Shown: positions 8,162 to 45,563, numbered from the stretch's first letter. The stretch: DNA of 45,563 nucleotides from an uncultured bacterium (GCA_903910645.1 CAIWAD010000113.1:1-45563); one strand, 5' to 3'. Numbers and translations are program-made. Notes: generated from the sequence alone by a model not told the origin.

Positions 8162-8230
8162 GGACAGCTCCTTGCAAGGCAAGTGGCGGAATCCGCCGAG
8201 ACAATGGAAAGGGTCAGGTGGGGGTGGGAA

Positions 8231-11864: not shown

Positions 11865-13751
11865 TTAGCGCACCACCTTCACTTCCGCCTTCACCCGCTT
11901 TCGCACATGGGCGGCAGTCTTGCCATGGGCCAGGAAACCCGCCAGACCGTGGCCATGGCTGCCCATGATCAGCAGCTCCAGCGGGTGGCTCCGCGCAAAG
12001 GCCACCAGCTGATCCGCCGGCCGGCCGTGCAAAATGCGCCACTCCACCCTGGCTCCGGCCAAAGTCAGCTGGGCGCAGGTCTCCTCCAGATAGGCCACAT
12101 CGTCCATGGCGTGGCCGTCCCAACTCTCGCCACCGTAGACCTGGGCCTGGGCCGTGTCCGTCACATGCAGGAGCAGCAGGCGCTTTCCTTGAGTCGCCAA
12201 ATCCCGGCAATGGGCCACCACCGCGGCATCGGCGCCGCTGCGATCCAGGGCCGCCGCAACCCAGGGCAGACCATCGTCTCCTCCAGACGGGACAAAGGTC
12301 TCCGGCGGCGCTGTCGCAAAGGACATGGGCACGCGCCAGGCGACATCCTTCCCGCGCAAGGGCCACAAGGCCACCACCACCAGAAGCCCGGCCACCGCCG
12401 CCGCCGCCAGGGCCGCGCCCCAAGCCAGAGCGGGGTGGACATTCCCCAGCAGCCAAGCGGTGGTGACATCCCAAACCAGACGCGCGTTCAAGCCAACCAC
12501 CACTGCGGCCGTGACCCAGGCCAGCGCTTTCACCCAGGCTGCGTTCACAAAAGCGCCCATTTTGGCGCGGCTGCCGGTGAAGTGCACCAGGGGCAGGATG
12601 GCGAAAGGCAGTTGCAAACTGAGCACCACCTGGCTGGCGATCATCAACTGATAAGTGCCGGCTTCGCCCGTAAGACCAATCACCAGCACGGCGGGCACCA
12701 GGGCGGCGCTGCGCGTCACCAATCGGCGCAACCATGGCTGCAGGCGCAGGCTGACAAAGCCCTCCATCACAATCTGGCCGGCCAGGGTGCCGGTCAAGGT
12801 GGAGCTTTGTCCAGCGGCCAAAAGCGCCAGGGCGAACAGCACCTGTGCGGAGCGGCTGCCCACCAACTCGGCCAGCAAATGGTGGGCCTGCTGGATCTCC
12901 GTCACCACCACGCCATGGCGGAAAAAGACGGTGGCGGCCAGCACCAGGATGGCGGCATTGATGAGGAAAGCGGCGTTGAGCGCCACCACCGTGTCCACCA
13001 GGTTGTGCCGGCAGGCGGCGGCCTTGCCCGCGTCCCCGGGAGCCACGCGGCGGGTTTGCACCAGGGCGCTGTGCAGGTAGAGGTTGTGAGGCATCACCGT
13101 GGCGCCAATCAGGCCCAGGATGATGAGCAGGGAGCCTTCCGGCACCTGTGGCAGGAAGCCCGCGACGAAGTCGGGGAAGGAGGGCTTCACAATGAATGTC
13201 TGTGCCAGGAAGGCCATGCCGATGGTGGCCACCATCACCAGAATGAAGGCCTCCATGCGGCGGATGCCAAGGCGCTGGATGGCAAGCAGGAGGAAGGTGT
13301 CCAACAGGGTGATGACGCAGCCCCACAGCAGGGGCAGGCCGAAGAGCAGCTGCAGGCCGATGATGGTGCCCAGCACCTCCGCCAGATCGCAGGCGATAAT
13401 GGCGGCCTCGCAAAGGATCCACAAAGGAATGGCAACGGCGCGGGGATATTCACTGCGACAGGCCTGGGCCAGATCCCGCCCCGCCACAATGCCCAACCTG
13501 GCGCTAAGGGTTTGCAGCAGCACGGCCATGGCATTGGACATGAGCAGCACCCACACCAGGGCGGTTCCGAAGCGCGAGCCCGCCTCCAGATCCGTGGCCC
13601 AGTTGCCGGGATCCATGTAACCCACGCTGATCAGGAAAGCGGGGCCGAAGAAGGCCAGATGGCGTCGCCAGCCACCCGCGCGGGCGGGATCCACGGATGC
13701 GTGAAGCTCGGGCAGTGAGCGCGGGCTTTGGGCGGAGGACGATGCCATCAT
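11865..13751 (-). CDS. mntH: NRAMP-family Mn/Fe transporter fused to a C-terminal UspA domain
   Basis: Inner-membrane divalent metal importer (probably Mn2+) of 628 residues, versus about 410-450 for plain MntH. The TM1 metal-binding motif DPGN is at 47-50 (GYMDPGNWATDL) and the TM6 motif MPHN at 220-223 (GATVMPHNLYLHS). About eleven membrane segments reach residue ~470. From about 490 the protein is soluble and ends in a universal-stress-protein fold, with LLIMGSHGHGLAGF and a following HGKTAAHV matching the G-x2-G-x9-G(S/T) nucleotide-binding pattern in outline. The UspA part would be cytosolic and could regulate transport. The ATG overlaps the mntR stop by 4 bases (ATGA); a second ATG follows directly. 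Symbol by family; metal identity inferred from the adjacent DtxR/MntR regulator. Confidence 0.93.
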   Translation of the reverse strand: MMASSSAQSPRSLPELHASVDPARAGGWRRHLAFFGPAFLISVGYMDPGNWATDLEAGSRFGTALVWVLLMSNAMAVLLQTLSARLGIVAGRDLAQACRSEYPRAVAIPLWILCEAAIIACDLAEVLGTIIGLQLLFGLPLLWGCVITLLDTFLLLAIQRLGIRRMEAFILVMVATIGMAFLAQTFIVKPSFPDFVAGFLPQVPEGSLLIILGLIGATVMPHNLYLHSALVQTRRVAPGDAGKAAACRHNLVDTVVALNAAFLINAAILVLAATVFFRHGVVVTEIQQAHHLLAELVGSRSAQVLFALALLAAGQSSTLTGTLAGQIVMEGFVSLRLQPWLRRLVTRSAALVPAVLVIGLTGEAGTYQLMIASQVVLSLQLPFAILPLVHFTGSRAKMGAFVNAAWVKALAWVTAAVVVGLNARLVWDVTTAWLLGNVHPALAWGAALAAAAVAGLLVVVALWPLRGKDVAWRVPMSFATAPPETFVPSGGDDGLPWVAAALDRSGADAAVVAHCRDLATQGKRLLLLHVTDTAQAQVYGGESWDGHAMDDVAYLEETCAQLTLAGARVEWRILHGRPADQLVAFARSHPLELLIMGSHGHGLAGFLAHGKTAAHVRKRVKAEVKVVR

Positions 13752-14425
13752 GCCTCGCCCATGTGTACGAAGACCGCCGCCGCCGCCGCCGGGCCCACAT
13801 CCACGGCGCGGCCTTCCACCAGCAATTGCAGCGAGCCGCCATAGGGCTCGCGCAGCAGCAATTGAAGCCGGGCGCCGGGCACCAGGCCCCTGTCCTCCAG
13901 ATAGCGCAGCAGGGCGGCGTCGCGGGTGGTGACCCGGCGAATGCGGGCCTTGCCACCCATTGGCAGTTCCGCCAGCGCATGCTCAGCCACCTTGCCCAGG
14001 GAACCGTCGGCGGCGGGAATGGGCTCCCCGTGCGGATCCTCCGCCGGATGGCCCAGGAACTGCGCCAGCGCCTCGCAGAATCGCTCACTGACGGCATGTT
14101 CAAGGCGGTCGGCCTCGGCATGCACATCGTCCCAGCCATAGCCCAAATGTCTGTGAAGGAAGCTCTCCAGCAAACGGTGGCGACGCAACACGCGCAAGGC
14201 GTGCTGGCGTCCGGCCTCCGACAGGCGGGCTCCGCTGTGGGAGGCGTGCAGCACCAATGCCGGCGTGGCGGCGGCCAGGCGTTTCATCATGGCGGAGGCG
14301 GAGGCGGGGCTTACCCCAAGGGCAAGCGCCAACTCTCCCGTGCCCACTGGGCGGGGGCGGGTAGGCGTGGGTTCCTCACCCAACTGGTAGAGGGCTTTCA
14401 GATAATCATCAACGGATTCAGACAT
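13748..14425 (-). CDS. mntR: DtxR/MntR-family metal-dependent repressor
   Basis: Metal-sensing transcriptional repressor of 225 residues with the three-domain DtxR layout. An N-terminal winged HTH (ALALGVSPASASAMMKRLA) comes first. A dimerisation/metal domain follows, with RRHRLLESFLHRHLG and VHAEADRLEHAVSERF. A C-terminal FeoA/SH3-like domain begins near LPMGGKARIRRVTTRDAALL. In the metal site Glu and His of EH are kept and the DtxR iron-site Cys is Asp, which points to Mn2+ rather than Fe2+. At the N-terminus Asp7 fits MntR Asp8, but the MntR Glu11 position is Lys. It is first in a run with the NRAMP fusion (4-base overlap) and probably represses this operon, including itself, through the dyad over its start. 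The symbol reflects context. Confidence 0.88.
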   Translation of the reverse strand: MSESVDDYLKALYQLGEEPTPTRPRPVGTGELALALGVSPASASAMMKRLAAATPALVLHASHSGARLSEAGRQHALRVLRRHRLLESFLHRHLGYGWDDVHAEADRLEHAVSERFCEALAQFLGHPAEDPHGEPIPAADGSLGKVAEHALAELPMGGKARIRRVTTRDAALLRYLEDRGLVPGARLQLLLREPYGGSLQLLVEGRAVDVGPAAAAAVFVHMGEA

Positions 14426-14453
14426 GGCCGAAACTAATTTTAGCCATGTCTAA
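14418..14453. promoter_or_regulatory. Candidate MntR/DtxR operator over the mntR start
   Basis: AGACATGGC (14420-14428) and GCCATGTCT (14443-14451) form a perfect 9-bp inverted repeat with a 14-nt spacer. The distal copy lies in its own 14-bp near-palindrome, TTAGCCATGTCTAA (14440-14453, 12 of 14 positions symmetric). The proximal copy (14418-14431) is weaker and includes the mntR start codon. Placement directly upstream of a metal-dependent repressor suggests autoregulation. Repressor identity is inferred. Confidence 0.5.
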
Positions 14454-14818
14454 TTCCTACTCGACCCAGCAAGACCAATCCCCACACAAATGCCGCCAAG
14501 GCAATTGCCCTTCAGCAACTGGGCCTGGGCTGGGCGCGCCGCACCCTGGACTCCGCCATCATAGTCCGCTGGAGGGAGAGTGCGCCGCCCACTCCCCGGC
14601 GCTGGCCGCCCGTGGCCCAACGAGTGACCAACTGGATCTCAAATGGCGACTGGAGGGCTGTGGACTCCCTGGTATCCGCCTGCTGGAAGGCATAACGCGC
14701 ACGAGTCCACCCGCTCCACTATCCGTTGCCACTCACGGATTCATCGCATTCCCACCATGCCCCGCCCAGCCAATTCCCTGCCCACATGCGCCATATTCCC
14801 GCCCCAAAGGAGAGCGCC
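14454..14818. other. Intergenic region upstream of the ABC exporter
   Basis: About 365 bases between the divergent mntR and ABC-exporter genes. The promoters of both are expected here. A 170-codon plus-strand frame crosses it (14446-14958) but has no ribosome site or family signal and runs into the ATPase gene. No RNA gene, convincing riboswitch or repeat was seen beyond the mntR dyad. Confidence 0.5.
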
Positions 14819-15850
14819 ATGATCCATGTGCAGGGTTTGAGCAAGGAGTTCCGCGTCCACAAGAAGCAGGAAGGTCTGTTGGGCAGCCTTCGCAGTCTGG
14901 TGCGGCGCCAAAGCGTGGTGAAGCAGGCGGTGAAGGCCGCCACCTTCCATGTGGGTGAAGGCGAGATCGTGGGTCTGGTGGGGGCCAACGGCGCGGGCAA
15001 GACCACCCTGGTGAAGATGCTGGCGGGGATCATCCATCCCAGCGGCGGAGATGCGCGGGTGTTGGGACACCGGCCCTGGGAGCGGGCCCGGGACTTCCAG
15101 CGCGGCATCGCCCTCATCATGGGACAGAAGGCCCAACTGTGGTGGGATCTGCCCGCCGCCGACTGCTTTCTGCTGCTGAAAGAGATCTACCAGATCCCCG
15201 AGGAGCGATACCGCCAGACCCTGGCATTCCTCACGGAGACCCTGCAAGTGAAGGGCGAGCTGAACATCCAGATCCGCCGCCTGAGTCTGGGTGAGCGCAT
15301 GAAGATGGAACTCATCGCCGCGCTGCTGCACCAGCCCCGCGTGGTCTTCCTGGACGAGCCCACCATTGGCCTGGACCTGAGCGCACAGCGTTCCATCCGT
15401 GAATTCCTGCTGGGATACCGTGAGGAGCACCGCCCGGCCATGATCCTTACAAGCCATTACATGGAGGACATTGAGCGTCTCTGCGAGCGCATCCTCATCA
15501 TCCGCGAGGGCGAGCTGGTTTTCGACGGCCCGCTGGCGGAAGTGATGCGCACCCACGCCCGCCACAAGGTGATTTCCCTGCAGCTGAAGCCTGGCGCCTC
15601 GCCGGTTTCGCTCAAGCGCCTGCTGGGCGTGGGGCTGGATGTGGAGCTGCTGGAGGAAGGTCCGGAGCGCATCCGCATCCAGGCTCCCCGGGACGAGGTG
15701 CCCAACCTGGCCGGACGCCTGGTCTCCGAGCTGCAGGTGCACGATCTGGCGGTGGAGGAAATGGACATCGGCACAGTCATCGAGGGTCTGCTCCATGCCC
15801 GGGGCGCCAGCGCTGCGCCGTCGGCGGAAGCCGGGCAGGGGGCCGCGTGA
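14819..15850 (+). CDS. ABC-2 type exporter ATP-binding protein
   Basis: Cytosolic ATPase of an ABC exporter, 343 residues. Walker A is GANGAGKTT, the signature is LSLGERMKMEL, Walker B is VVFLDEPTIGLD, and the switch His is in TSHYMED. A C-terminal extension of about 100 residues (from VISLQLKPGASPVSLKRL) matches the COG4586 type of ATPase that pairs with two DUF990-like permeases, as found here. The substrate is unknown. The ATG at 14819 has AAAGGAG 6 bases upstream; the frame extends to 14726 but without such a site. It overlaps the first permease by 4 bases (GTGA). Confidence 0.94.
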   Translation: MIHVQGLSKEFRVHKKQEGLLGSLRSLVRRQSVVKQAVKAATFHVGEGEIVGLVGANGAGKTTLVKMLAGIIHPSGGDARVLGHRPWERARDFQRGIALIMGQKAQLWWDLPAADCFLLLKEIYQIPEERYRQTLAFLTETLQVKGELNIQIRRLSLGERMKMELIAALLHQPRVVFLDEPTIGLDLSAQRSIREFLLGYREEHRPAMILTSHYMEDIERLCERILIIREGELVFDGPLAEVMRTHARHKVISLQLKPGASPVSLKRLLGVGLDVELLEEGPERIRIQAPRDEVPNLAGRLVSELQVHDLAVEEMDIGTVIEGLLHARGASAAPSAEAGQGAA

Positions 15851-19627: not shown

Positions 19628-19716
19628 GTTTCGCATGCTCGACCGTGCGCCCAGCCTTTCTACTCGTCTCGTTCTCGGATCACCTTCACGATCCCGATGG
19701 CGAAGGCTATCTGGGA

Positions 19717-21144
19717 TCAGACATCGTAATAGAGCTCCATCTCGTAGGGATGGGGCCGACGCCGCAGGGCCGCCGCTTCCTCGCGCTTGCGGGAAATCCA
19801 GGTCTCCAACAGATCCTGGGTGAAGACGCCGCCCGCCAGCAAAAAGTCCTGATCCTGCTCCAGGGCGCTCAGCGCCTCCTCCAGACTGGTGGGCAGGCTG
19901 GCAATTTTGTCCCGCTCCGCCGGCGGCAGATTGAAGACATTCACATCGAAGGGTCCGAAGCCCATTTCCCGCGGATCCAGGCGCCGCTGGATGCCGTCGA
20001 TGCCCGCCATGAGCTGGGCGGCCATGGCCAGGTAGATGTTGCAGGTGGCGTCGGGCGGACGGAACTCAATGCGCTTCTCGTGGGGCTCGGTGGCGTACTT
20101 GAGGATGCGGATGGCCGCGCTGCGATTGCCCAGGCTGAAGAAGGACTTGATGGGCGCTTCGAATCCCGGCACCAGGCGCTTGTAGCTGTTGGTGCTGGGG
20201 TTGGTCAGGGCCAGCAGGGCTGGGCCGTGGGCCAGCAGTCCTCCGATGTAGTGCAGGGCCGTGTCCGACAAGTCGGCATAGCCGCCCTTGTGGTAGAAAA
20301 GCGGCTCCTCGCCACGGAACAAATGCTGGTGGAAGTGCATGCCGGAGCCCGCCACATTGTAAAGCGGCTTGGGCATGAAAGTGGCCGTCTTGCCATGGTT
20401 GCGCGCCACCATGCGGATGACATACTTCGTCCACATGGCCTTGTCCGCCGCCCGGCGCAGGCTGTCCAACAGGATCTCGATCTCGTTCTGGCCCGGGCCG
20501 CCCACCTCGTGGTGGTGGTAGTTCACGGGAATGTCCGCCGCCTCCAGCAGCCGCACCATTTCGCTGCGCAGGTTGTAGCTGCGGTCCATGGGCGGCGCCG
20601 CGTGGTAGCCGGCGTGGGCACCCATGCGATGGCCCTGGTTGCGCCCTGGGAGCATGCTGTTCCAGCCCGCCTCCTCGCTGTCAATGCTGTAGGCGGATTC
20701 GTTCTCCGTGTTGCGGTAATTGATGGAGTCGAAGATGTAGAACTCGAACTCCGGCCCCCACTTGCTGTGGGTGGCAATGCCGCAATCCGCCAGGTAGCGC
20801 TCGGCCCGGGCGGCAATGCTGCGTGGATCCCGGCTGAACGGCGCCCGCGTGTCCGCTTCGGCAATGCTGCAGAACATGGACAGGGTGGGCACATCCCAGA
20901 AGGGATCGTGGTAGGCCGTGCGCGGATCCGGCAGAAGCACCATGTCGCCGGCTTCAGTGGTCTTGAATCCCGGCGTGGAGCTGCCATCGAATGCGATGCC
21001 GCGGTCAAAGGTCTCGTGGAGAACATGGCTGGCGGGCAGGGTGATGTGGTGCCACCCGCCGAAGAGATTGACGAACTTGAGGTCCACCATCTGGATCTGG
21101 TGGTCGTGCAGGTAATCCAGCACTTCCTCGCGCGTGATGAACAT
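19717..21144 (-). CDS. glnA: Glutamine synthetase type I, lacking the adenylylation tyrosine
   Basis: Condenses ammonia and glutamate with ATP to glutamine; cytosolic dodecamer. At 475 residues it is of normal GSI length. Visible motifs include FDGSSTPGFK, the metal-binding KWGPEFEFYIFD, NYHHHEVGGPGQNEIE, the catalytic GSGMHFHQHL, and NRSAAIRI with KRIEFRPPD. The adenylylation region, NLYDLPPEE in E. coli with Tyr397, reads NVFNLPPAE here, with Phe404 (codon TTC, 19933-19935) in place of Tyr. The flanking alignment is unambiguous, so covalent control by GlnE at this site is not possible. The ATG at 21144 has TTGGAGG upstream and matches the GSI N-terminus. The longer frame to 21297 overlaps the divergent gene. 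A stable hairpin lies in its leader. Confidence 0.96.
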   Translation of the reverse strand: MFITREEVLDYLHDHQIQMVDLKFVNLFGGWHHITLPASHVLHETFDRGIAFDGSSTPGFKTTEAGDMVLLPDPRTAYHDPFWDVPTLSMFCSIAEADTRAPFSRDPRSIAARAERYLADCGIATHSKWGPEFEFYIFDSINYRNTENESAYSIDSEEAGWNSMLPGRNQGHRMGAHAGYHAAPPMDRSYNLRSEMVRLLEAADIPVNYHHHEVGGPGQNEIEILLDSLRRAADKAMWTKYVIRMVARNHGKTATFMPKPLYNVAGSGMHFHQHLFRGEEPLFYHKGGYADLSDTALHYIGGLLAHGPALLALTNPSTNSYKRLVPGFEAPIKSFFSLGNRSAAIRILKYATEPHEKRIEFRPPDATCNIYLAMAAQLMAGIDGIQRRLDPREMGFGPFDVNVFNLPPAERDKIASLPTSLEEALSALEQDQDFLLAGGVFTQDLLETWISRKREEAAALRRRPHPYEMELYYDV

Positions 21145-21161
21145 GCCGCCTCCAATGTTGG

Positions 21162-21183
21162 GATGAGCCGGCTTCGGCTCATC
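21162..21183. promoter_or_regulatory. Leader hairpin upstream of glnA
   Basis: GATGAGCCG (21162-21170) pairs perfectly with CGGCTCATC (21175-21183) around a 4-nt loop. It begins 17 bases upstream of the glnA start, just before its ribosome site, in the 117-base divergent region. It could affect mRNA stability or translation, or be an operator. No T-tract follows on the minus strand, so termination is unlikely. Confidence 0.4.
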
Positions 21184-21261
21184 GGGGTGGTCAAGGAAGC
21201 AAAGCACGGCGGATATGTGAACTGTTTGACAGGCCCCCGCAGGCCCTTGAAAGGACGAGAC

Positions 21262-22356
21262 ATGGCCCGTTACACACACTTGGATTCCCCCATGCAACTG
21301 GGTGAACTGCAGCTGCGCAATGGCATGGTGATGGCGCCCTGCACGCGCTGCTTCTGTCCTGGCTTCCTGCCCACCCGGGACATGGCCGCCTATTACGCCC
21401 GCCGCGCCGCCAGTGGCGTGGGGCTAATCATCAGCGAGGGCACGGTGGTCTGCCAGCGTGGCAGTGGATATCCGGATGTGCCGGGCATTTGGTCGGACGG
21501 GCAAGTGCGGGCCTGGCGCCCCGTCACCCAGGCGGTGCACGAGGCGGGCGGTCGCATGGCCTGCCAGCTGTGGCATGTGGGGGCGGTGGCCCATCCCGTC
21601 ACCACCGGCGGGCCCTTGCCCGAATCCCCCAGCGGCCTTTCGCCGGAGGGTCCCGTGCGCAGATTGCGCGGCGCCCATGGGGAGGCGCTTCACTACGGAG
21701 CCTCGGAAGCCATGAGCGCGACACGCATCAAGGAAGTGGTGGAGATTTTCGCGGCGGCTGCCGGGCGGGCCCTGGAGGCGGGCTTCGACGCCGTGGAGAT
21801 CCACGGCGCCCACGGCTACCTCATCGATCAGTTCATCAACCTAAGCTGGAACATGCGGGAGGATGAGTGGGGAGGCCAGGGGCGCTGCCGCTTGGCGGAG
21901 GACATCACCCGCGCTGTGGTGGCGGAAGCCGGGCCTGGGCGCGTCATCTTTCGCTTCTCCCCCGCCACGGGAGCCTCGGGCAAGGTGTGGAAGCGTCCGA
22001 CGGAGACCCTGCCCCTGCTGTTGGACACCCTGTGGGGAGCCGGGCTGCGCATCCTACATGCCAGCCACGGCAACTTCGATGCCCCCTGTGTGCCGGCGGA
22101 GCTGGCTCCCCTGGCGCAGGCTTCGCCAGATGGGATGGTGCCCCTCCACGCCGCCACCCGGGCCCACTGGCAAGGACAGATCATTGGAGTGGGTTCCTTA
22201 AGCCCAGGACGGGCGGATGAGGCGCTGGCCGCCGGAGAAGTGGATGCCTGCGCCTTCGGACGGCTGCTCATCGCCAACCCCGATTTGCCCAGCCGCATGC
22301 GCATGGATCTGGATCCGCGCCCTTACGATCCTGCCATGTTGGAGACTCTGTTCTAA
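21262..22356 (+). CDS. NADH:flavin oxidoreductase, Old Yellow Enzyme family
   Basis: FMN-dependent ene-reductase-like TIM barrel, 364 residues. Family motifs: LRNGMVMAPCTRCFCPGFLP, YYARRAASGVGLIISEGT, GGRMACQLWHVGA, and the active-site HGAHGYLIDQFINLSWNMR. The catalytic His pair is at HGAHGYL. FMN-phosphate binding is at IIGVGSLSPGRADEAL and CAFGRLLIANPDLP. The pattern is close to NemA/OPR reductases, which reduce activated C=C bonds; the true substrate is unknown. AAAGGA lies 7 bases before the ATG at 21262. The frame runs open far upstream through the antisense of glnA, which is not coding. Divergent from glnA. Confidence 0.94.
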   Translation: MARYTHLDSPMQLGELQLRNGMVMAPCTRCFCPGFLPTRDMAAYYARRAASGVGLIISEGTVVCQRGSGYPDVPGIWSDGQVRAWRPVTQAVHEAGGRMACQLWHVGAVAHPVTTGGPLPESPSGLSPEGPVRRLRGAHGEALHYGASEAMSATRIKEVVEIFAAAAGRALEAGFDAVEIHGAHGYLIDQFINLSWNMREDEWGGQGRCRLAEDITRAVVAEAGPGRVIFRFSPATGASGKVWKRPTETLPLLLDTLWGAGLRILHASHGNFDAPCVPAELAPLAQASPDGMVPLHAATRAHWQGQIIGVGSLSPGRADEALAAGEVDACAFGRLLIANPDLPSRMRMDLDPRPYDPAMLETLF

Positions 22357-37068: not shown

Positions 37069-37632
37069 ATGGACCAGAGACTCCCCTCACAAGCTTCCAT
37101 TCTGGCCAGCCGCTGCCTGTTGGGCACGGCCTGCCGCTTTGATGGCCAGTCCAAGCCTCAAGCCGCCCTTGGCCTGCTGCCATCCTCCTGGACTCTGTTG
37201 GATTTGTGCCCGGAAGCCGATTTGGGCATGGACACGCCACGCCCGCCCATTGGCCTGCTAATGCGGGATGGGCGACTTCACCTCATGGAGTGCAACAGCC
37301 CCAGGGAATGGACGACGGAAATGGAATCCTGGTGTGCTTTCCTGGCGCATGTGCTGGTGGCGGACGGCGTGGCGGGAGCCGTGCTGAAGGCTCGGTCCCC
37401 CTCCTGCGGCAAAGGGGATGTGGCGATATACGGTGAACATCGGTTGATGGCTTGGCCAGGCCCGCCGGAAGCCGCACTGAGTCATGGGGGTGATGGCTTC
37501 CTTGTGCAGGCCTTAAGGCGCCGGGATGCCTCCTTCCCCATTTTGCGGGACGAGGATCTGCTGCACGAAGGCAAACGCCTGGCCTTTGTCCAGGCGGTGG
37601 AAAGGCGCTGCAGCCTTAGCGCGCCAAGGTGA
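37069..37632 (+). CDS. DUF523 (YbbK-like) family protein
   Basis: Cytosolic protein of 187 residues in the DUF523 family, biochemical function unknown. The conserved Cys blocks are SRCLLGTACRFDGQ at the N-terminus, LDLCPEADLGMDTPRPPIGL, and LKARSPSCGKGDV, which together look like a metal or cofactor site. The ATG at 37069 follows the terminator hairpin directly, so its ribosome site (GAGTGA) is weak and the transcript must initiate inside or read through the hairpin. Its last 17 bases overlap the 3' end of the convergent sorting-domain gene. Confidence 0.85.
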   Translation: MDQRLPSQASILASRCLLGTACRFDGQSKPQAALGLLPSSWTLLDLCPEADLGMDTPRPPIGLLMRDGRLHLMECNSPREWTTEMESWCAFLAHVLVADGVAGAVLKARSPSCGKGDVAIYGEHRLMAWPGPPEAALSHGGDGFLVQALRRRDASFPILRDEDLLHEGKRLAFVQAVERRCSLSAPR

Positions 37633-38563
37633 TACGCAGACTCTGGCTACCCGCCCGGGCCACATAGGCGCCGGAAGGTGCGGGTCGGCCACGCTGATCC
37701 AGCCCGTCCCACACCACTTCCCGCGTGCCGCTGCCCGCCAGGGGCAAACGGCGCACTTCTTCACCGAGCACATTGAAGATCCCCAGATCCGGCGCAGGCG
37801 CAAGGCCGTCCAAGCGGATGATGCACAAAGGGTTGAAGGGATTGGGACGGGCACTTAAGCCCATGGATTCCGGTCGCTGCGGGGGTGTTACCGCCACGGC
37901 ATTGGTGCCCCAACACACCAGTTCGGATGTTCCGCTGGTCCAGTACCAGTTCAGGAGCAGTTCGTCGGCTTCAGACCCTTCCACATTGCCCACGAAGGGG
38001 CCCGCCAGAAAGCCATCGCCCGTTTGCTCCGCCAGCTCCACCGCGCCTGTGGCCAGATTGCGCACGGTCCAATGGCTGGTGTAGGCGCTGCCATCCCAGG
38101 AGTGCCAGGAGTAGGCCAGCTCCTGTTGTCCGTCGCCGTCCAGATCGCCAATGCCGCCTTCCGTGATGTTGCCGGGCAGCACGGCCGTGCTCCAGGCAGG
38201 ACTGGCGGCCCCCGCCGGATAAACATCCAGGCGCGACTGCTGATCCACGGCGTTCTGCTGGCGGAACACCAGGAATCCCGCCTTCTGTTGCCACAACTGG
38301 AAGAGCGTGTTGGTGCTGGAACTGGAATCCTCCACCAGCCATACCTGGGTGTAGGTGTCGGCGCCATCGAAGAACCAGGAGGACACGCCGTCCTCCATCA
38401 CCAGCTCCTGGATGCCATCACCGTTGAGATCGGGCCAGGCCCAGCTGACCACCACATCGGACTCCGCAACCGTCCACTTTTGCACAATCTGGGCCATGGC
38501 TTGGGGTGCCGTCAGGGCCGCCAGGGACAGCAGCGCCAGGGTGGCGCCCAATCGGGAATTCAT
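37616..38563 (-). CDS. Secreted protein with FG-GAP-like repeats and C-terminal sorting domain
   Basis: Exported protein of 315 residues. A signal peptide (LALLSLAALTAPQAMAQ) is followed by a domain with Ca2+-type motifs DLNGDGIQELV and DLDGDGQQELAY, as in FG-GAP/VCBS beta-propeller repeats. A C-terminal domain of about 85 residues starts at LSARPNPFNP and holds APDLGIFNVLGEEVRRL, VVWDGLDQRGRPAPSGAYVA and SLRITLAR. This is the FlgD-Ig-like/type IX cargo signature, so export through T9SS and surface display are likely. GGGGGAG precedes the ATG at 38563. It is the last gene of the 44898-37616 operon, overlapping the fusion gene by 4 bases, and runs into the 3' end of the convergent DUF523 gene without a terminator. 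Confidence 0.9.
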   Translation of the reverse strand: MNSRLGATLALLSLAALTAPQAMAQIVQKWTVAESDVVVSWAWPDLNGDGIQELVMEDGVSSWFFDGADTYTQVWLVEDSSSSTNTLFQLWQQKAGFLVFRQQNAVDQQSRLDVYPAGAASPAWSTAVLPGNITEGGIGDLDGDGQQELAYSWHSWDGSAYTSHWTVRNLATGAVELAEQTGDGFLAGPFVGNVEGSEADELLLNWYWTSGTSELVCWGTNAVAVTPPQRPESMGLSARPNPFNPLCIIRLDGLAPAPDLGIFNVLGEEVRRLPLAGSGTREVVWDGLDQRGRPAPSGAYVARAGSQSLRITLAR

Positions 38564-40782
38564 GCGTCCTCTCCCCCATTCTGTTGCAGGCGGAAATCGG
38601 CCAGCACCCGTCCACCTTCCTGTGTCAGCACCAGGCGCGTGATGCCCCGGTGGGCCTCCGCGCGATACTCCGCCTTCATGCGCCGCTTGCCTTGGGCGCC
38701 AAGTTGCGCGCCTCCCAGCAGGGAAAGCGTGGGTCCTTCCTCCACCCGGGCGCTCAGTTCCACATCCCCGTCCTGTTCCAGAGTCAGCAGGCGTCGCCAA
38801 CCCTGGGCCAGACCATGGGAACGCACCTGGCAGCGCGTGCGCAGTGTGCCGTCCACCCGGCAGGACAGGGCCGGAAGCATGAGCAGCATTAGATCCACCA
38901 GACCGTGCCGCCCGGGCAGGGACAGGCGATCCGGATCGCCTTCCGCCAATGGAAGGAGTTGCACCCAGCCCGGCCACCACACCACCTGGGCCGTGCTGAC
39001 ACCGTCGTCCAGGATAAGGCGTCCCCACAACCCGGCACGCAAGCGCAGCAGCACTTCTTCCTGGCGGCGGCCGCGCGTCACCGTGTAGCGCCACTGGCGC
39101 CCTGGCACGGCGAATGGATAGCAGGCCGAACACTCCTGCCCGTCCATGCCTTCCAGAGAGCCCACGCGCATGCCGCGATCCGGCTGCCCCAGCGGATGGA
39201 AAATGGCGGTCTCGCCGGGCGGGAACTCCACCCAGCTGCCAAAGCGGGCGGGCAGGCTGCGCGAAGCCAGCCAGGGGCCTTCGTTGAGCTGAAGATGCAG
39301 GTGTGGCTCCGGGCTGCGGCCGCTGTTGCCCACCTGGGCCAGTTCCTGCCCCCGGCTGACCCGTTGTCCCGCCGCCACGCCGATGCTGCCGGAGCGCAAA
39401 TGGGCAAGCAGCGTGCAGCTGCCTTCAACATGAGCAATGAGCAGCCAGTTTCCCCAAGGGCTGAAAGTGTTGGCGGCGTGCACGGGATTGTCCGGCTGGG
39501 AGGATTCAAGCGCCACCACGGTGCCGTCCGCCGGAGCCAACACGGGACAGGCCCAGCCATGGAAATGTTCCACCTGGTCCGCCGGCCAATCGGCGCCGCG
39601 TCCATCCTCCTCCAGCAACATGAAATCCCAGGCCTGTGCGCCCAGCAAGGTGTTGTGGGTAAGGTCGCCGCCGGGACCCTGGGTAACCGTCCAGACTCCG
39701 CGCAAGGGAAGGCTGAGCACCGGGCCGGGCAACTCGCGCAGCCGCTTCCAACGCTCGAAGGCGCGCAGATTGTCCTCCGCCCGCCCCACCAGCTCCAGGG
39801 GTGGCGCCCATATGCCCAATCGCTCAGAATCCAGCGTGCCCATGCGCAGGGGCAAGAGGAAGAGCCAGACGGTCAGGGTGAAGGGCAGGGCCAGCACGGG
39901 CAGTCCCAGCACCGAGAGGACAGGATGCAGAGCCATGGCCACCAGCATGCTGGAACCCACCGCCAGGGCTGCGTACACCAGGCTGCGCGCGTTGATGGCC
40001 AGGAAGAGACCGCTTAGGGCCGCCGCCGTCAGGATGGCGTTGAATGCCACCAGACCAAAGGCACTCTTCTGGAAGATCCCGCCAGACAGCACCTGCAGGA
40101 GCCCCGTGCCCAGCAGTCCACCCGCCAGCATGGCCAGCACGGTTATGCGCGATCCCGCCAGCAGCCCCGCCACCACCAGCAGGCCACCCGTGAGGGAGGG
40201 CAGGAAGAGCAGAGAACCGAAACTGCGCAGATACTCCTGCGCCAGCAAGGGCAGACGGCTGCCCAACCACACTTCCATTTGTTCCAGTCCAGGAAGCAGA
40301 GGCTGCATCTCGGCCAGAGGCAGGGATCCCTGGAAAAGCAGGGTGGCCGTGGACAATGTCACGAAGGTGGCCAGCACGAAAGGCAAGGCCAGCACCGGCA
40401 GTCCATTGCGGCTCAGCAAAGGCGTCAGGGCGGAGACCAGCAAGGCCGCCAGCAAGGCGGCGGCCGGCACCAGGAACCAGGGGAAGAATCCGTCCGGCAG
40501 ATAAGTGGCCAGGGCCGCTCCTGCCAAGAGGCCCGCGCCATGGTGCAGGCCCAGGCGATGGATGGCCGCCTGGGGCGAGAGCAGGCGTCCGGCCCACATT
40601 GCGGTGAAGAGTCCAAGCAGGGCGAAGACAATGTGTCGTGGACTGCTGCCCAGCGCCGCCAGAAAGAGCACGCCACTGCGTCGGCGAGGCGTGAAGAGCA
40701 CGCCGCCGATGGTGTTCAGCACCTCATCGATCAAGGGCTGCCAGGGCCCTTTGGCGATGCGTGTGGCGCGTCCGGGGCTCAT
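38560..40782 (-). CDS. Urea-transporter-like membrane domain fused to M23 metallopeptidase
   Basis: Inner-membrane protein of 740 residues. Residues about 35-320 form roughly ten helices with the duplicated urea-transporter (UT) pattern: GLPVLALPF appears in both halves (SRNGLPVLALPFVLATF and SVLGLPVLALPFTLTVW), plus QKSAFGLVAFNAILTAAAL. Residues about 355-520 form an M23 (lysostaphin-type) zinc peptidase, with His376 and Asp386 in THNTLLGAQAWDF and the HxH motif HLHLQL (494-496). A C-terminal beta-rich domain of about 210 residues (Cys pair CSAC) has no known family. M23 enzymes cleave cell-wall peptides, so this may import or sense small products of peptide cleavage. ATGA overlaps join it to both neighbours. 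Urea as substrate is unproven. Confidence 0.85.
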   Translation of the reverse strand: MSPGRATRIAKGPWQPLIDEVLNTIGGVLFTPRRRSGVLFLAALGSSPRHIVFALLGLFTAMWAGRLLSPQAAIHRLGLHHGAGLLAGAALATYLPDGFFPWFLVPAAALLAALLVSALTPLLSRNGLPVLALPFVLATFVTLSTATLLFQGSLPLAEMQPLLPGLEQMEVWLGSRLPLLAQEYLRSFGSLLFLPSLTGGLLVVAGLLAGSRITVLAMLAGGLLGTGLLQVLSGGIFQKSAFGLVAFNAILTAAALSGLFLAINARSLVYAALAVGSSMLVAMALHPVLSVLGLPVLALPFTLTVWLFLLPLRMGTLDSERLGIWAPPLELVGRAEDNLRAFERWKRLRELPGPVLSLPLRGVWTVTQGPGGDLTHNTLLGAQAWDFMLLEEDGRGADWPADQVEHFHGWACPVLAPADGTVVALESSQPDNPVHAANTFSPWGNWLLIAHVEGSCTLLAHLRSGSIGVAAGQRVSRGQELAQVGNSGRSPEPHLHLQLNEGPWLASRSLPARFGSWVEFPPGETAIFHPLGQPDRGMRVGSLEGMDGQECSACYPFAVPGRQWRYTVTRGRRQEEVLLRLRAGLWGRLILDDGVSTAQVVWWPGWVQLLPLAEGDPDRLSLPGRHGLVDLMLLMLPALSCRVDGTLRTRCQVRSHGLAQGWRRLLTLEQDGDVELSARVEEGPTLSLLGGAQLGAQGKRRMKAEYRAEAHRGITRLVLTQEGGRVLADFRLQQNGGEDA

Positions 40783-42170
40783 GCGGGGGAGGATCCCCCA
40801 GCCAAATGCCCGGGCAGGCGATCCAACTGCCGCCAATAGGCCGGCGTCTCCTTCTCACGCACCACATGCGCGCCACCGTGGGGATCCACCAGCACCACTG
40901 GCGGACGGCCGTGGATGAACTGGGTGCTCTGGCTGAGGTTGTAAGCGCCAATGTGACGCACCACCAGCAGGTCGCCAGGCGCAAGGGCCGGCAGGGGCAC
41001 GCCCTTGCGCAACACATCGATCTGCATGCACAGGTTGCCCAGCAGGGTGGTCTCTTCCAGGATCATGGAGGGCTGGCTGCGCACGGGAATCACATCGTAA
41101 CGATACCAGGCCGTGCTGGAGAGCAGGTTCACGCCGGCGTCCACCACCAGGGCGCGGCTGCCGTCGCCCAGACGGCGCTCGGAGATGACGCGCACCACCA
41201 GATGCATGGCCTCATCGATGAGCGCGCGACCGGTTTCAAAGAAGAGTTCCGGCAATTCCTCGCCTGGCTCCAGGGGCAGGGTGGAGAGCACGGGGCAGAT
41301 GGCCTCGGCATACTGCTGCATTGTGGGACAGCTCACCTCGCCGGACTGGTAGGCCCAGTGCAGCGTGTTGCGTGTGGCGAAACCACCGCCCATGTCCCAC
41401 CAGCGGATGCGCGCCCCGGTGTAGCGCCGCACCCACAGGGCCAACTCCACCATGCGGCCGGCGGCGCGGCGGTAAATGTCCACATTGTCCACATAGGTGC
41501 CCACATGGGTGTGCAACCCTGCCAGCTCCAGCTCCGCGCTGTCTGCCAGGCGCCGGGCGGCCTCGTGGGCGCGGCCGGACTCCAGGTTGAAGCCGAAGCG
41601 ATCCCAATGCTGGGCGTCCAGCTGCATGTTCACGCGGATGGCCACCGGCAGCTTGGCCACGCCTTCCGGCAGGCCGCACTCACGCACCAGCTCCTCCACA
41701 CGGGCGATCTCCTCCAGGTGGTCCAGATGGATGCGCGCTCCGCCGCGGATTGCCTCGCGCAGGGAGTCGTCGTCCTTGTGCGGGCCGTTGTAGATGATGC
41801 GGGAGGCCGGCACGCCCAGTTCGCGGGCCAGTTGGAACTCGTGGCCGGAGACCACTTCCGCCCAGGATCCTTCCTGATGCATGATGGAGCACACGGCGGA
41901 GAGGTAATTGGTCTTGTAGGACCAGCCCAACCGCACGCGGGGATAGCGGGTTTCAAAGGCGCGGCGGAACTGCTGCACCTTGCGCCGGATGGCATTCTCG
42001 CTGATGAGGTACAGGGGCGATCCGAAGCGTTCCGCCAGGGATGCCAGAGGAATTCCGTCCAGCTCCTCCATGACACGCAGGCCCGGGGCGCGTCCGAATT
42101 TGTTCTGCAGGCCGGACTGGTGTCGGATGAGGACAGGCTTCTCGTAGAGGCGACGCTCCGGGGATGCCAT
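40779..42170 (-). CDS. Diaminopimelate-decarboxylase-like PLP enzyme
   Basis: Fold type III PLP-dependent decarboxylase of the LysA/SpeC-like family, 463 residues. The PLP Lys86 is in LGWSYKTNYL. The His of the PLP stack is in LHTHVGTYV (LysA HSHIGSQ). WDMGGGFATRN and the phosphate loop FETGRALIDEA follow. In the C-terminal beta domain the LysA motif CESGD reads GNLCMQIDV: the catalytic Cys is kept but Glu-Ser is Met-Gln, so specificity probably differs from meso-DAP. GAYNLSQSTQFIHGRP closes the site. It does not look like the housekeeping lysA. CAGGAG precedes the ATG at 42170, 4 bases after the ATP-grasp stop; it overlaps the fusion gene by 4 bases. Confidence 0.85.
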   Translation of the reverse strand: MASPERRLYEKPVLIRHQSGLQNKFGRAPGLRVMEELDGIPLASLAERFGSPLYLISENAIRRKVQQFRRAFETRYPRVRLGWSYKTNYLSAVCSIMHQEGSWAEVVSGHEFQLARELGVPASRIIYNGPHKDDDSLREAIRGGARIHLDHLEEIARVEELVRECGLPEGVAKLPVAIRVNMQLDAQHWDRFGFNLESGRAHEAARRLADSAELELAGLHTHVGTYVDNVDIYRRAAGRMVELALWVRRYTGARIRWWDMGGGFATRNTLHWAYQSGEVSCPTMQQYAEAICPVLSTLPLEPGEELPELFFETGRALIDEAMHLVVRVISERRLGDGSRALVVDAGVNLLSSTAWYRYDVIPVRSQPSMILEETTLLGNLCMQIDVLRKGVPLPALAPGDLLVVRHIGAYNLSQSTQFIHGRPPVVLVDPHGGAHVVREKETPAYWRQLDRLPGHLAGGSSPA

Positions 42171-42174
42171 GGGC

Positions 42175-43269
42175 TCAGGCTCCTGTTGGGCGATGCAGGA
42201 CGCGGCCGGAGACATTGATGCTCTCCAGTACATCCAGGTCGCAGATGATGTCCACCGCCGCGCGGCTGTAAATGACTCCGCTGCGTGCGGGGGGCAGCTT
42301 GCCGGGATGGCCGTTCAAGGCCACCTGGGCCAGGGCTGCGGGCAGGTTCTGGCCCGCTCCGGCGCACAGGTAGCACCAGGCGGGAAAGCGCGGGTTGATT
42401 TCAATGAGACAGAGGCGGTCGGTCTCCTCCTCACAGAGGATCTCCAGCTCGCAGGGGCCGCGCCACTTCAAGGCGTGGATCATGCGTTCCGCCAGCTCCA
42501 GCAGCCGGGGCTCGCCCACGGTGACGCCACTCCAGGCCTTGCCTTTGTCCGTTACGCCCAGCTTGCGCATGGGCACGGCGCCAATCAGTCCACCTTCGCC
42601 ATCTCCCAGACAGCACACATTGTACTCGAAGCCGGGCAGGCCGCGCTGCAGGATGATGGGCAGGCCCCATTTGGCGCTGATTTCGATGAAGGCCGCCGTG
42701 GCCTGATCCAGGGTCCAGGCCTTGCGGGCGTCGTAGAACACGCCCTTCACATAGACCGGCTCCCGTCCCGTGGGATCCTGGATCTCCTCCCACACATCGT
42801 GCATGCTGGACAGACTGTTCACCACTTCCGTGGCGGGCACTTCGAAATCATGGGTGCGGCAGAAGTGGGCCAGCCGGGACTTGGCGCGCATGGACAAGCC
42901 CTGCTCATCCGGCAGGAAGGAGCGCACGCCCAGTTCAGCCAGCTCGTCCTGCAAGGTCAGGTAGAGTTCCATTTCGCTGTCCAGGGTGGGCAGCACCAGA
43001 TCCAGGGGCCCGTGGGACAACACCTGGCGCAACTGGCCCATGAGGGCATCGCTGCCCCGGCTGGGAAAGGGCACCTGATAGATCTCGTCGAAGAGTTCGC
43101 GCTGGTAGACGCCGGCGTCCATGGCGTCGTAGGCCAGGCCCACCAGGCGTCCCGTGTGGCCCGCCTCCCGCAGGCTGCGCGCCACGGCGATGCCCGGCGC
43201 GGGATTGTCGGCGGCATTGAGGCCACTTACCGCAATGGCGCCCTCGCGCCATGACGTGAGACTGCGCAT
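42175..43269 (-). CDS. ATP-grasp ligase-like protein
   Basis: Enzyme of 364 residues with an ATP-grasp fold (carbamoyl-phosphate synthetase/biotin carboxylase type). An N-terminal Rossmann-like part (AIAVSGLNAADNPAPGIAVA) is followed by the ATP-binding lid around YVKGVFYDARKAWT and PIILQRGLPGFEYNV. The Mg2+/ATP site CELEILCEEETDRLCLIEIN ends in Asn-Pro-Arg. Such enzymes couple a carboxylate to an amine or thiol using ATP; the acceptor here is unknown. AGGAGG precedes the ATG at 43269, inside the end of pqqD, 2 bases after its stop. A TTG start 6 bases earlier is possible. Context with PqqD-like and PLP-decarboxylase genes suggests synthesis of a modified amino acid or peptide. Confidence 0.85.
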   Translation of the reverse strand: MRSLTSWREGAIAVSGLNAADNPAPGIAVARSLREAGHTGRLVGLAYDAMDAGVYQRELFDEIYQVPFPSRGSDALMGQLRQVLSHGPLDLVLPTLDSEMELYLTLQDELAELGVRSFLPDEQGLSMRAKSRLAHFCRTHDFEVPATEVVNSLSSMHDVWEEIQDPTGREPVYVKGVFYDARKAWTLDQATAAFIEISAKWGLPIILQRGLPGFEYNVCCLGDGEGGLIGAVPMRKLGVTDKGKAWSGVTVGEPRLLELAERMIHALKWRGPCELEILCEEETDRLCLIEINPRFPAWCYLCAGAGQNLPAALAQVALNGHPGKLPPARSGVIYSRAAVDIICDLDVLESINVSGRVLHRPTGA

Positions 43270-43271
43270 GC

Positions 43272-43538
43272 TCAAGCCTCCTGGCTCCGGGCCTCGCGGG
43301 GGAGCACCCGGTTCTGGCGCAGACTGGCCAAATACTCGTCCAGGTCACTGGCCGCCTGGTCCGGTGTCACATCGAAGTGCAGGATCATGGAGTTGAGAAT
43401 CTCCTGGCGGGCGTCACCGTGGATGAGCCGCTCCAGGATGTAGGCGCCTGTGCTGTTGGTGCTGAAGCTTAGCCCGCTGTGGTGGTCGAAAAGGAAACCC
43501 TGCGGACTCAGATGGAGATGGGACAGGTTGGCCGCCAT
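43272..43538 (-). CDS. PqqD-like (RiPP recognition element) protein
   Basis: Small protein of 88 residues with the PqqD fold (winged helix that binds peptides in RiPP pathways). LHLSPQGFLFDHHSGLSFST, then NSTGAYILERLIHGDARQEI, and FDVTPDQAASDLDEYLASL match the family order: D-x-x-S/T-G, N-x-T-A/G-x-x-I-hydrophobic, and V-x-x-D-hydrophobic-x-x-F/Y-hydrophobic. No radical SAM partner is present. The ATG at 43538 is separated from the upstream stop by one base, and its ribosome site (GGAAAGGG) lies in that gene. It probably presents a peptide or carrier substrate to the ATP-grasp enzyme downstream, by analogy with PqqD. Assignment is by pattern, not alignment. Confidence 0.75.
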   Translation of the reverse strand: MAANLSHLHLSPQGFLFDHHSGLSFSTNSTGAYILERLIHGDARQEILNSMILHFDVTPDQAASDLDEYLASLRQNRVLPREARSQEA

Positions 43539-43539
43539 G

Positions 43540-43968
43540 TTACTTGCCCTTTCCACCAGCCGCCGACTGGGCCAGGCTGCCGTAGACATAGAGGATCTGG
43601 TTCTCCAGGTGGTAACCGTTCTTCTTGCACCACTCGCAGGGACCGGCACAATTGGCTGACGGAACCTTCTTCTCCCACAGGGCCGCCTCCACGCCGCCTC
43701 CCAGCAGACGATCGGCAATGGTGAAACTGTGCTCGAAACGGCCCACGGGGATTTGCAGAACCTGATGGGTGCCATCGGCCAACACATTCTGCGTGCCATA
43801 TGGGTAAAAGGACACGCCCAGCCACACAGCCTTGCTCACCTGGCCCTCCACCACCAGCTTGGCCGGGCGCTTGCCCTTGGCGTCAAGCTTCAATGAAAGA
43901 CCCAGTTCCTGGGACCACGCGGTGGCACACAAGGCCAGCGTCAGCAGCAGGGGCACCAGCTTCCTCAT
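43540..43968 (-). CDS. Exported small protein with Cys motif, coupled to pqqD
   Basis: Hypothetical exported protein of 142 residues. A clear signal peptide (LVPLLLTLALCATAWSQ) is followed by a beta-rich domain (KRPAKLVVEGQVSKAVWLGV, GRFEHSFTIADRLLGGG). Near the C-terminus three Cys lie close together in SANCAGPCEWCKKNGYHL, and the end is Gly/Lys-rich. No family recognised. GGAGAGGAAA precedes the ATG at 43968. The stop is one base from the pqqD start. It could be a periplasmic partner, the sensor part of the operon, or even the protein modified by the downstream enzymes; none is proven. Cys clustering suggests metal or disulfide binding. Confidence 0.75.
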   Translation of the reverse strand: MRKLVPLLLTLALCATAWSQELGLSLKLDAKGKRPAKLVVEGQVSKAVWLGVSFYPYGTQNVLADGTHQVLQIPVGRFEHSFTIADRLLGGGVEAALWEKKVPSANCAGPCEWCKKNGYHLENQILYVYGSLAQSAAGGKGK

Positions 43969-43995
43969 TTTCCTCTCCCCATAAAAGAGGGCGCG

Positions 43996-44898
43996 CTATT
44001 CCAGCGTCGCCCAGTGAAGTTGTGTCCAGCGCAGGGAGGCAAAGGCCCAACGGCTGCGGGAATCCTCTGTCCGATCCTGACCCACGCTTCCTTCAACGCT
44101 CAAGCCCTTCCACAATTGCCAGGACAGGCCCAGCGATGCGGCACTACGCAAGTCTGAGGCACCATCGTGCACCACCAGTCGCTCCGCTTCGAACCAATGG
44201 GCCTGCCTGCCCACCATGGCACGCCCCTGCAGGCCCAGCGAACCCCGACGCGCCGCAATGGCCACCAGAGCCGCCACCTTGGTTTTGGCCTGCTTGCGGT
44301 TGCCCAACAGGCCCACCTTTTCCTCCACATACCAGTCGCCCCGGGCTCCCTTGCGCGCCAGGGCCACTTCCATGGCGGGATGCCTGCTCGCCTTGCTGTT
44401 AGCCGCCATGACAGGGGCACGCAAGACGCGCAAACCAATGGTTTCAATGTCCTCCTTGAAAGGATTGGGACACCAGTTAAGCCCCGCTCCCGCTCCCCAA
44501 TTGGACGCCTCCGAGTGCACAGCGGAATCGGGGGCCTGGGCATCTGCCCCATACCAGGTTTCCTGAAAGGCCGTGGTGGAATGGCCCAGCAGCTCCACGC
44601 CCCAATGGGATCCCACGGCCACCTTGGCCACTGCCATGCGCGTCAGGCCTCGGTAGCTCCACCAATCCTGCCACAAGACCTGCCGCGAAAATCCAGCAAG
44701 GGCTGTCCAGCGGTTGCCCGCGCCTGCGCCGGCATAGAGGCTTGCCGTGCGGCCCTGGGCATCCCGGAACATGATGGGGTTCTGGTCGTGATGCCATGTT
44801 CCTTCGGTGCCGGCGGACAGGCTCCACCAGCGCGCCTCCAGGGCCGCCTGTGCTGGCAGCTGAAGCAAAAGAAGCAGCATGGACAGCAGATGCTTCAC
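43996..44898 (-). CDS. Predicted outer-membrane beta-barrel protein
   Basis: Hypothetical exported protein of about 300 residues, first in the seven-gene operon. The signal peptide is VKHLLSMLLLLLQLPAQA from a GTG start at 44898 with GGAAAGG upstream; an in-frame ATG at 44952 with GGGGAAAT would add 18 residues. The mature part shows alternating hydrophobic and Gly/aromatic strands (SLYAGAGAGNRWTALAGF, SLGLQGRAMVGRQAHWF) typical of beta barrels, ending in a Trp/aromatic-rich strand (WAFASLRWTQLHWATLE). No family recognised. By position it could be the outer-membrane receptor or exporter of the pathway. It faces a divergent response-regulator gene across 131 bases. Confidence 0.7.
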   Translation of the reverse strand: MKHLLSMLLLLLQLPAQAALEARWWSLSAGTEGTWHHDQNPIMFRDAQGRTASLYAGAGAGNRWTALAGFSRQVLWQDWWSYRGLTRMAVAKVAVGSHWGVELLGHSTTAFQETWYGADAQAPDSAVHSEASNWGAGAGLNWCPNPFKEDIETIGLRVLRAPVMAANSKASRHPAMEVALARKGARGDWYVEEKVGLLGNRKQAKTKVAALVAIAARRGSLGLQGRAMVGRQAHWFEAERLVVHDGASDLRSAASLGLSWQLWKGLSVEGSVGQDRTEDSRSRWAFASLRWTQLHWATLE

Positions 44899-45029: not shown

Positions 45030-45563
45030 ATGGCCAAGGCCCGTTTGCTGGTGGTGGAGGACGATCCCCATATCCGCGAGCTGATCTGCAGCAACCTGGA
45101 GAGTGAGGGCCTGGAATGCACGCCCTGCGGGGATGTGCGCAGTGCCCTGGCCCACCTGCAGAAGGAGCTTCCGGACCTCATCCTCCTGGATCGCATCCTG
45201 CCCGGTGGCGACGGCCTGAAAGTCCTGCAAAAGGTGCGGGAACTCAGCAGCCTGCCCGTGCTCTTGCTTACCAGCCTGAAGAGCGAGGACGACAAGGTGG
45301 AGGGCCTGGAGGCAGGCGCCGACGATTACCTGGGCAAACCCTTCTCCCTGCGAGAACTGAAGGCCCGCGTGCAGGCCCTGCTGCGCCGCAGCCGCATGCA
45401 GCCCGGCGCCAGCTTGCGCTTGGGCAGCTTGTACTTGGACGCCGAAGGCCACCAGGCATTCCGTGACGGCCAGCCTTTGGATTTGAGCCCGCTGGAAGTG
45501 CGTGTCCTGCGCAGCCTGCTCATGAACCAGGATCGCATCCTCCGCCGTGACGAGCTGATTGAG
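45030..45563 (+). CDS. OmpR/PhoB-family response regulator, 3'-truncated by window edge
   Basis: Two-component response regulator, 178 residues visible. The receiver domain has VVEDDPH, the phospho-Asp in LILLDRILPGGDG, the Thr/Ser of LLLTSLKS and Lys in GKPFSLREL. A linker and the start of a winged-helix DNA-binding domain follow (LRLGSLYLDAEG, LDLSPLEVRVLRSLLMN, ILRRDELIE), as in OmpR/PhoB. TGGAGAG precedes the ATG at 45030. It is divergent from the seven-gene operon, so it may regulate it; a sensor kinase is expected beyond the window. The DNA-binding domain is cut. Confidence 0.95.
   Translation, partial: MAKARLLVVEDDPHIRELICSNLESEGLECTPCGDVRSALAHLQKELPDLILLDRILPGGDGLKVLQKVRELSSLPVLLLTSLKSEDDKVEGLEAGADDYLGKPFSLRELKARVQALLRRSRMQPGASLRLGSLYLDAEGHQAFRDGQPLDLSPLEVRVLRSLLMNQDRILRRDELIE

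Follow-up and report, generated by a model that had tools for sequence, protein, structure and literature searches.

Results

A seven-gene operon-like unit and its surroundings

The stretch of DNA analysed here (the window) comprises 45,563 nucleotides from an uncultured bacterium (GCA_903910645.1 CAIWAD010000113.1:1-45563). Reading of its open reading frames (ORFs) confirmed seven minus-strand genes at 37616-44898 (Table 1). The successive junctions, in gene order, are a 27-base gap, a 1-base gap, a 4-base overlap, a 4-base gap and two ATGA overlaps, and the PqqD-like/ATP-grasp junction becomes a 2-base gap if the ATG start of the ATP-grasp gene is used. The first-pass annotation had described just such a row of genes joined by overlaps or by gaps of 1 to 27 bases, and an operon-like unit is indeed supported; its core is not a chance assembly, because it is conserved across phyla (see below). 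The count of terminator-like hairpin sites is about two standard deviations above that of shuffled sequences, and the single promoter-like match inside the operon region is at chance level.

Table 1. Genes, domains and signals of the operon region (window coordinates)
Feature	Coordinates	Strand	Remarks
Predicted barrel BAR1	43996-44898	-	GTG start; signal peptide; first operon gene
Cys protein	43540-43968	-	Small secreted beta-sandwich protein (from homologues and model)
PqqD-like protein, core gene 1	43272-43538	-	88 aa; RiPP-recognition-element fold; Pfam PqqD
ATP-grasp ligase, core gene 2	42175-43275	-	TTG start, or ATG at 43269; PRK12767 / ATPgrasp_Ter type
Decarboxylase, core gene 3	40779-42170	-	PLP-dependent, alanine-racemase fold; FslC-like, not LysA
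UT-M23 fusion, core gene 4	38560-40782	-	Pfam UT + Peptidase_M23
UT membrane domain of core gene 4	39850-40731	-	Pfam UT 2e-47; urea-filter residues replaced
M23 domain of core gene 4	39283-39546	-	Pfam 2e-15; first zinc His just upstream of the Pfam match
Sorting-domain protein	37616-38563	-	Secreted; FG-GAP, and FlgD_ig (T9SS-like) at the C-terminus; lineage-specific passenger
Terminator-like hairpin, weak	37576-37596	-	Directly after the last stop codon
OmpR-type response regulator	45030-45563	+	Divergent; runs off the window; possible regulator

The OmpR-type regulator is kept beside the operon in two genomes close to that of the window (G001 and G002), and it is followed by a sensor-kinase-like gene (13030-13713 and 13710-15173 in locus L018). 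In another locus (L014) a regulator/kinase pair lies directly after the decarboxylase. At the other end of the operon, the end of a small convergent gene (37069-37632, plus strand) overlaps that of the last operon gene, and a homologue occupies the same place in locus L011 (4310-4906).

Elsewhere in the window, AcrB, HlyD-type and OEP genes in tandem (2478-8182, minus strand) form an ordinary RND efflux operon, and an Nramp transporter is fused to a universal-stress (Usp) domain (11865-13751, minus strand). An ORF of 903 amino acids (19645-22356, plus strand) matches NADH:flavin oxidoreductase in its last 360 residues only; its first 540 residues are without assignment, and its start may be wrong.

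Conservation and co-occurrence of a four-gene core

Searches for the ATP-grasp covered first 98 and later 386 genomes, mostly one per family. Its scores are bimodal, 19 of the 386 genomes giving a best match better than 1e-100. Targeted searches found carriers in 3 of 52 genomes of one phylum (that of G083), 1 of 7 of a second (G260), 12 of 40 of a third (G122) and 3 of 9 of a fourth (G199). Together with the window's own phylum and the family of G014, a complete genome of 1,541,968 bases that is in none of the targeted lists, this makes at least six phyla, and the patchy spread within phyla fits an accessory trait.

The genes for PqqD, ATP-grasp and decarboxylase stand in the same order and on the same strand in 31 loci, with PqqD found in 30 of them (the remaining one, L068, has no PqqD match at 1e-8). 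The start of a gene lies at most 30 nucleotides from the previous stop in 29 of 30 cases for PqqD to ATP-grasp, 28 of 31 for ATP-grasp to decarboxylase and 13 of 26 for decarboxylase to UT-M23, the latter being within the locus in 26 of 31. A protein scan of contigs, which reaches close relatives only, found just two loci. The first-pass annotation had named homologues scattered without a conserved neighbourhood as the result that would count against it; we found the opposite, an order kept in 31 loci of at least six phyla.

The first-pass annotation had also proposed a search for co-occurrence of the PqqD-like, ATP-grasp and decarboxylase genes with UT-M23. A scan of the 386 genomes with the full UT-M23 profile found a full-length protein in 18 of the 19 ATP-grasp genomes and in 1 of the 367 others (Fisher p ~1e-28, or 7e-27 if partial UT-M23 matches are counted against). 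The remaining ATP-grasp genome (G134) has a UT protein without M23, so the peptidase domain is not indispensable, and two genomes lacking the ATP-grasp (G258 and G212) have truncated UT-M23 genes at contig edges. A genome counted as non-carrier, G099, has a full-length UT-M23 with a decarboxylase directly upstream and a TPR gene downstream, and is probably a carrier too. In this region (L112 10541-18000) the bases just upstream of the decarboxylase are masked (N), and ATP-grasp and PqqD genes are unreadable there.

In three genomes (G011, G301 and G108) UT-M23 is present but lies on a separate contig, and in G301 and G108 a barrel gene of the same type stands beside it. The module can therefore be divided in two: PqqD, ATP-grasp and decarboxylase make up a cytosolic half, and UT-M23, barrel and TPR an envelope half, and the two still occur together when unlinked. 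Moreover, the tree distances of the four core proteins are correlated in every pairwise comparison (r 0.73-0.88, reached by none of 2000 permutations, and also after thinning), these Mantel correlations being in part the shared history of the species. The earlier suggestion that the PqqD-like protein, the ligase and the decarboxylase work together is supported. The four-gene core is an ancient module. Its order, kept in at least six phyla, and a co-occurrence that stays nearly perfect when the halves are unlinked make it very probable that the pathway is real.

The barrel and the lineage-restricted genes

Neither BAR1 nor the Cys protein has a family match in Pfam (nor, for BAR1, in NCBIfam). 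The AlphaFold2 model of BAR1 (pLDDT 73, pTM 0.69) consists of an N-terminal helix and about 16 long strands, and its best solved matches in Foldseek are outer-membrane barrels such as EstA, OmpG and CymA (E 1e-8 to 1e-6), in support of the barrel proposed earlier. We regard BAR1 as a predicted outer-membrane barrel with a signal peptide. It has orthologues in three genomes (G001-G003). In the window's family the barrel leads the operon; in most of the distant loci a barrel or TPR-barrel fusion and/or a TPR protein comes after UT-M23. When BAR1 was compared with barrels from other phyla, hhalign gave a probability of 16% and aligned only the last 64 columns. The evidence for homology is weak, and the barrel could be a separate recruitment. 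Since the barrel groups align so poorly, their functional equivalence is something that we infer.

The Cys protein has six homologues, including those of loci L043 and L045. It also precedes PqqD in two genomes of a second phylum (G199 and G330, the latter with another barrel-like gene upstream), where two of its three cysteines (C107 and C111) are kept. Its model has a pLDDT of 85, and the fold search gave Ig/FnIII-like folds with no significant match. We found no evidence that it is a cargo modified by the other proteins, as had been suggested. The sorting-domain protein, which matches FlgD_ig (8e-7) and FG-GAP and gives no match to the Por tail model, occurs only in the window's family (G000-G003). 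Its secretion by a T9SS is possible, because the genome holds SprA; the earlier description as a T9SS-type cargo needs the correction that the gene itself matches FlgD_ig and not a T9SS tail model. The idea that all seven genes form one system is not supported, the T9SS-type gene being family-specific and the Cys protein lineage-restricted.

The PqqD-like protein and the ATP-grasp

The PqqD-like protein matches Pfam PqqD (6e-11), and its nearest solved relatives are the lasso-peptide proteins TfuB1 (4e-11) and TbiB1; judged from these matches, core gene 1 has the PqqD/RRE fold. The ATP-grasp matches ATPgrasp_Ter (Pfam, 3e-10). It belongs to the carbamoyl-phosphate-synthase-like ATP-grasps; 2pn1, the solved structure nearest to it, is annotated only as such. 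The metal/ATP motif E-N-P-R (E292, N294, P295, R296) of the ATP-grasp is invariant in a nine-member alignment. One locus (L049, 9331-13934) has a tandem duplicate of the ATP-grasp and a UT gene without M23, the sole such variant among the loci.

The likeness of the PqqD-like protein to the lasso-peptide recognition elements TfuB1/TbiB1 favours a RiPP-type system, in which it would bind the leader of a precursor encoded elsewhere, the ATP-grasp and the decarboxylase would install a C-terminal amine or something similar, and UT-M23 would export and trim the product. Likewise, MccE, a decarboxylase of the same fold and clade as that of the cassette, matures a peptide (PMC7857480), and a transporter-peptidase fusion might, by analogy, recall the peptidase-containing ABC transporters. 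However, a comparison of 985 small ORFs from the 31 loci revealed no conserved precursor-peptide ORF beside the core, the only matches being between near-identical species pairs or shadow-like ORFs. Nor was any ABC exporter, radical SAM, YcaO or lasso cyclase gene recognised beside the core by ORF reading, as distinct from a systematic scan. In addition, the normal targets of M23 enzymes are murein or peptides rich in Gly. On balance, we think that a RiPP-type system is unlikely, if still worth keeping in mind.

The UT-M23 fusion

The fusion protein matches Pfam UT (2e-47) and Peptidase_M23 (2e-15). Its UT domain matches dvUT and the mammalian UT and has the UT fold. UT proteins are channels, and Q24 of dvUT, which we take to be a further residue of its urea filter, is Gly in the window's protein. 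At E187, T130 and T294, the filter residues described for dvUT (PMC4357013), the alignment with dvUT places Ser, Ala and Ala, and E187 is replaced in all of 26 UT proteins. These replacements make urea transport by the domain unlikely; the reading as a urea transporter was discarded on this ground, and a transporter domain acting on urea finds no support. In the M23 domain, the zinc ligands His/Asp/His (TH, D, PHxH) are intact in all 25 proteins having such a domain, which makes peptidase activity likely; the spacing from the first His to the Asp is longer in the cassette fusions than the usual HxxxD. About 200 residues beyond the M23 match (in the window, within 38560-39240, minus strand) have no Pfam match. 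This region is conserved in part in other fusions and absent in L043 and L045.

An active M23 enzyme could also belong to a system for recycling or sensing murein, close to the first-pass annotation's idea of a product made from wall fragments: M23 would free pieces of stem peptide, UT and the barrel would move them inward, and the ATP-grasp and the decarboxylase would modify them. Besides the intact zinc ligands, the fold that the decarboxylase has in common with DAP decarboxylase and, in the window's genus, the presence of an OmpR-type regulator next to the operon are in line with this. On the other hand, the pore constriction of solved UTs is 2-3 angstrom (PMC10541013), too narrow for peptides; the same constriction is a difficulty for exporting any large product by way of UT. 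The decarboxylase, for its part, is without the Glu of the LysA motif CExxD, and no amidase, NagZ or Mpl was recognised in the loci read. We found no evidence for wall fragments as the substrate, and such a murein-linked system seems to us rather improbable.

The decarboxylase

The decarboxylase matches Pfam Orn_Arg_deC_N (5e-31) and the corresponding C-terminal sheet (2e-13). Its catalytic set of Lys, His, Glu and Cys (K90, H224, E316, C385) is invariant in nine aligned proteins, and among all 31, for which the catalytic motifs were displayed, two have Met for the first His of GLHxH. Among solved structures it is nearest to N-citrylornithine decarboxylase (5e-93), with DAP decarboxylases coming after it (4e-67). 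The LysA cut-off (TIGR01048, 297.9 bits) is not reached, either by the window's protein (216 bits) or by the cassette decarboxylases in general (about 201-243), and in all 31 the specificity loop is CM(N/Q)xD, with GAY, as in FslC, whereas LysA has CExxD. On these two grounds the reading as LysA was rejected, and the altered specificity claimed earlier is supported. The score of the window's protein against the NCBIfam model of FslC itself is 218, with a cut-off of 500. In a FastTree phylogeny with the LysA proteins of the same genomes and few outgroups, 30 of the 31 cassette decarboxylases form a clade (support 0.97), FslC being the nearest outsider and the node joining all 31 having a support of 0.23 (L082, a LysA comparison sequence read in the wrong frame, is to be disregarded in this tree).

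In the clade of N-citrylornithine decarboxylase there are enzymes, BtrK among them, that act on amino acids in acylated or carrier-bound form, and in FigC citrate is contacted by H357 and R387 (PMC7857480). The corresponding positions are Ile/Leu and Gln in all 31 cassette decarboxylases. This loss of the citrate contacts, combined with the FslC-like loop, suggests that the substrate is probably a side-chain-acylated, but not citrylated, amino acid.

The same residues bear on a carboxylate metallophore pathway of the rhizoferrin or vibrioferrin kind, with the ATP-grasp replacing the NIS synthetase. The nearest decarboxylase is the siderophore enzyme FslC/FigC, and a ligase and a decarboxylase combined with envelope export have the layout of siderophore systems. 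Yet, with hydrophobic residues and Gln in place of the two FigC contacts in every cassette protein, and with neither an NIS synthetase nor a TonB receptor recognised among the loci read, the siderophore reading was rejected, and we consider a metallophore very unlikely. Finally, a housekeeping decarboxylase of lysine biosynthesis among unrelated chance neighbours, which the failure to find another LysA in the window genome at E 1e-40 could suggest, is scarcely credible, given the scores and loop described above, the fact that 10 of 19 carrier genomes have a separate, true LysA that exceeds the cut-off, the order conserved over phyla and the co-occurrence data, which contradict it.

Discussion

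A possible module for making and exporting an acylated amine

The reading that we prefer, tentatively and at somewhat less than even chances, is that of a co-inherited make-and-export module yielding an N-acylated, decarboxylated amine. Synthesis would take place in the cytosol. There the PqqD-like protein would present a substrate (a peptide or a peptide-like acyl donor) to the ATP-grasp, and the ATP-grasp would link the acyl group to a free amino acid at its side-chain amine (or hydroxyl). Removal of the alpha-carboxyl by the FslC-like PLP decarboxylase would then give an N-acylated (peptidyl) amine. These steps draw on what is known of the families and on residue conservation. The product would leave through the UT-like pore, the periplasmic M23 domain attached to UT would trim the cargo or open the murein, and the outer membrane would be crossed via the barrel, which in most other phyla has a periplasmic TPR protein as its partner or as a fused part. 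For these envelope steps we rely on gene association and predicted topology; export, as against import, is the direction that we infer for UT.

The proposal is built on gene content and order, operon coupling, co-occurrence and correlated trees, together with the intact catalytic residues of the decarboxylase and M23, the changed substrate loop, the replaced urea filter and the predicted barrel. The substrate and product, the order of ligation and decarboxylation, the direction of transport and the role of M23 are our suppositions. Put in more general terms, this may be a widespread system of diderms, although we would not yet bet on it: an ATP-grasp guided by PqqD and a decarboxylase of acyl-amino acids would make a product with a terminal amine, which UT-M23 and an outer-membrane TPR/barrel port would export and process.

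Novelty and relation to known systems

The first-pass annotation knew of no described pathway with this set of genes, and we found none either: no paper combining PqqD, ATP-grasp and DAP decarboxylase turned up in the open-access literature searched, nor did searches within the graspetide and RRE papers reveal the gene set. No NCBIfam model cut-off is passed by any core gene of the window, and we know of no transporter-peptidase of the UT-M23 kind. Within the open-access literature searched, the system is thus undescribed; its parts belong to known families. The module gives a context to UT-M23 fusions otherwise labelled urea transporters or peptidases, to decarboxylases otherwise labelled LysA and to barrels without a family, and the model makes direct predictions for metabolomics.

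Several parts have known counterparts. At the outer membrane, the TPR-barrel exporters PgaA, BcsC and Slam also combine a periplasmic TPR and an outer-membrane barrel beside synthesis genes, but no such exporter family reached its cut-off and no polysaccharide synthase was recognised in our loci. The urea transporters dvUT and UT-B have in common with UT-M23 the UT fold over about 300 residues, the LPxxxxPF repeats and the SRI motif; they differ in their filter residues, and the window's UT is fused to M23 and a further C-terminal region. The PqqD-family chaperones of the lasso-peptide, HPr-rel-A and SCM systems have the same PqqD fold as core gene 1, and the motif GFxFD...G.....N is common to the members of the cassette family; the window's protein falls below the cut-offs of these chaperones, has other partner enzymes and comes with no precursor that we could find.

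Further parallels are with the decarboxylases. FslC/FigC, of rhizoferrin synthesis, and the other members of their clade (SbnH, AcsE, BtrK, MccE) have the same alanine-racemase fold as the cassette enzymes, and the catalytic Lys, His, Gly-rich loop, ExGR, Cys and Asp, the CMxxD loop and GAY are common to both; what sets the cassette apart from FslC/FigC is the absence of the citrate contacts and of any NIS synthetase recognised nearby. In butirosin synthesis, BtrJ, which we take to be the ATP-grasp of the pair, and the alanine-racemase-fold decarboxylase BtrK act on a carrier. The small partner in our cassette is PqqD-like, without the phosphopantetheine serine of an acyl carrier protein, but the logic would be alike: an amino acid is held, ligated and then decarboxylated.
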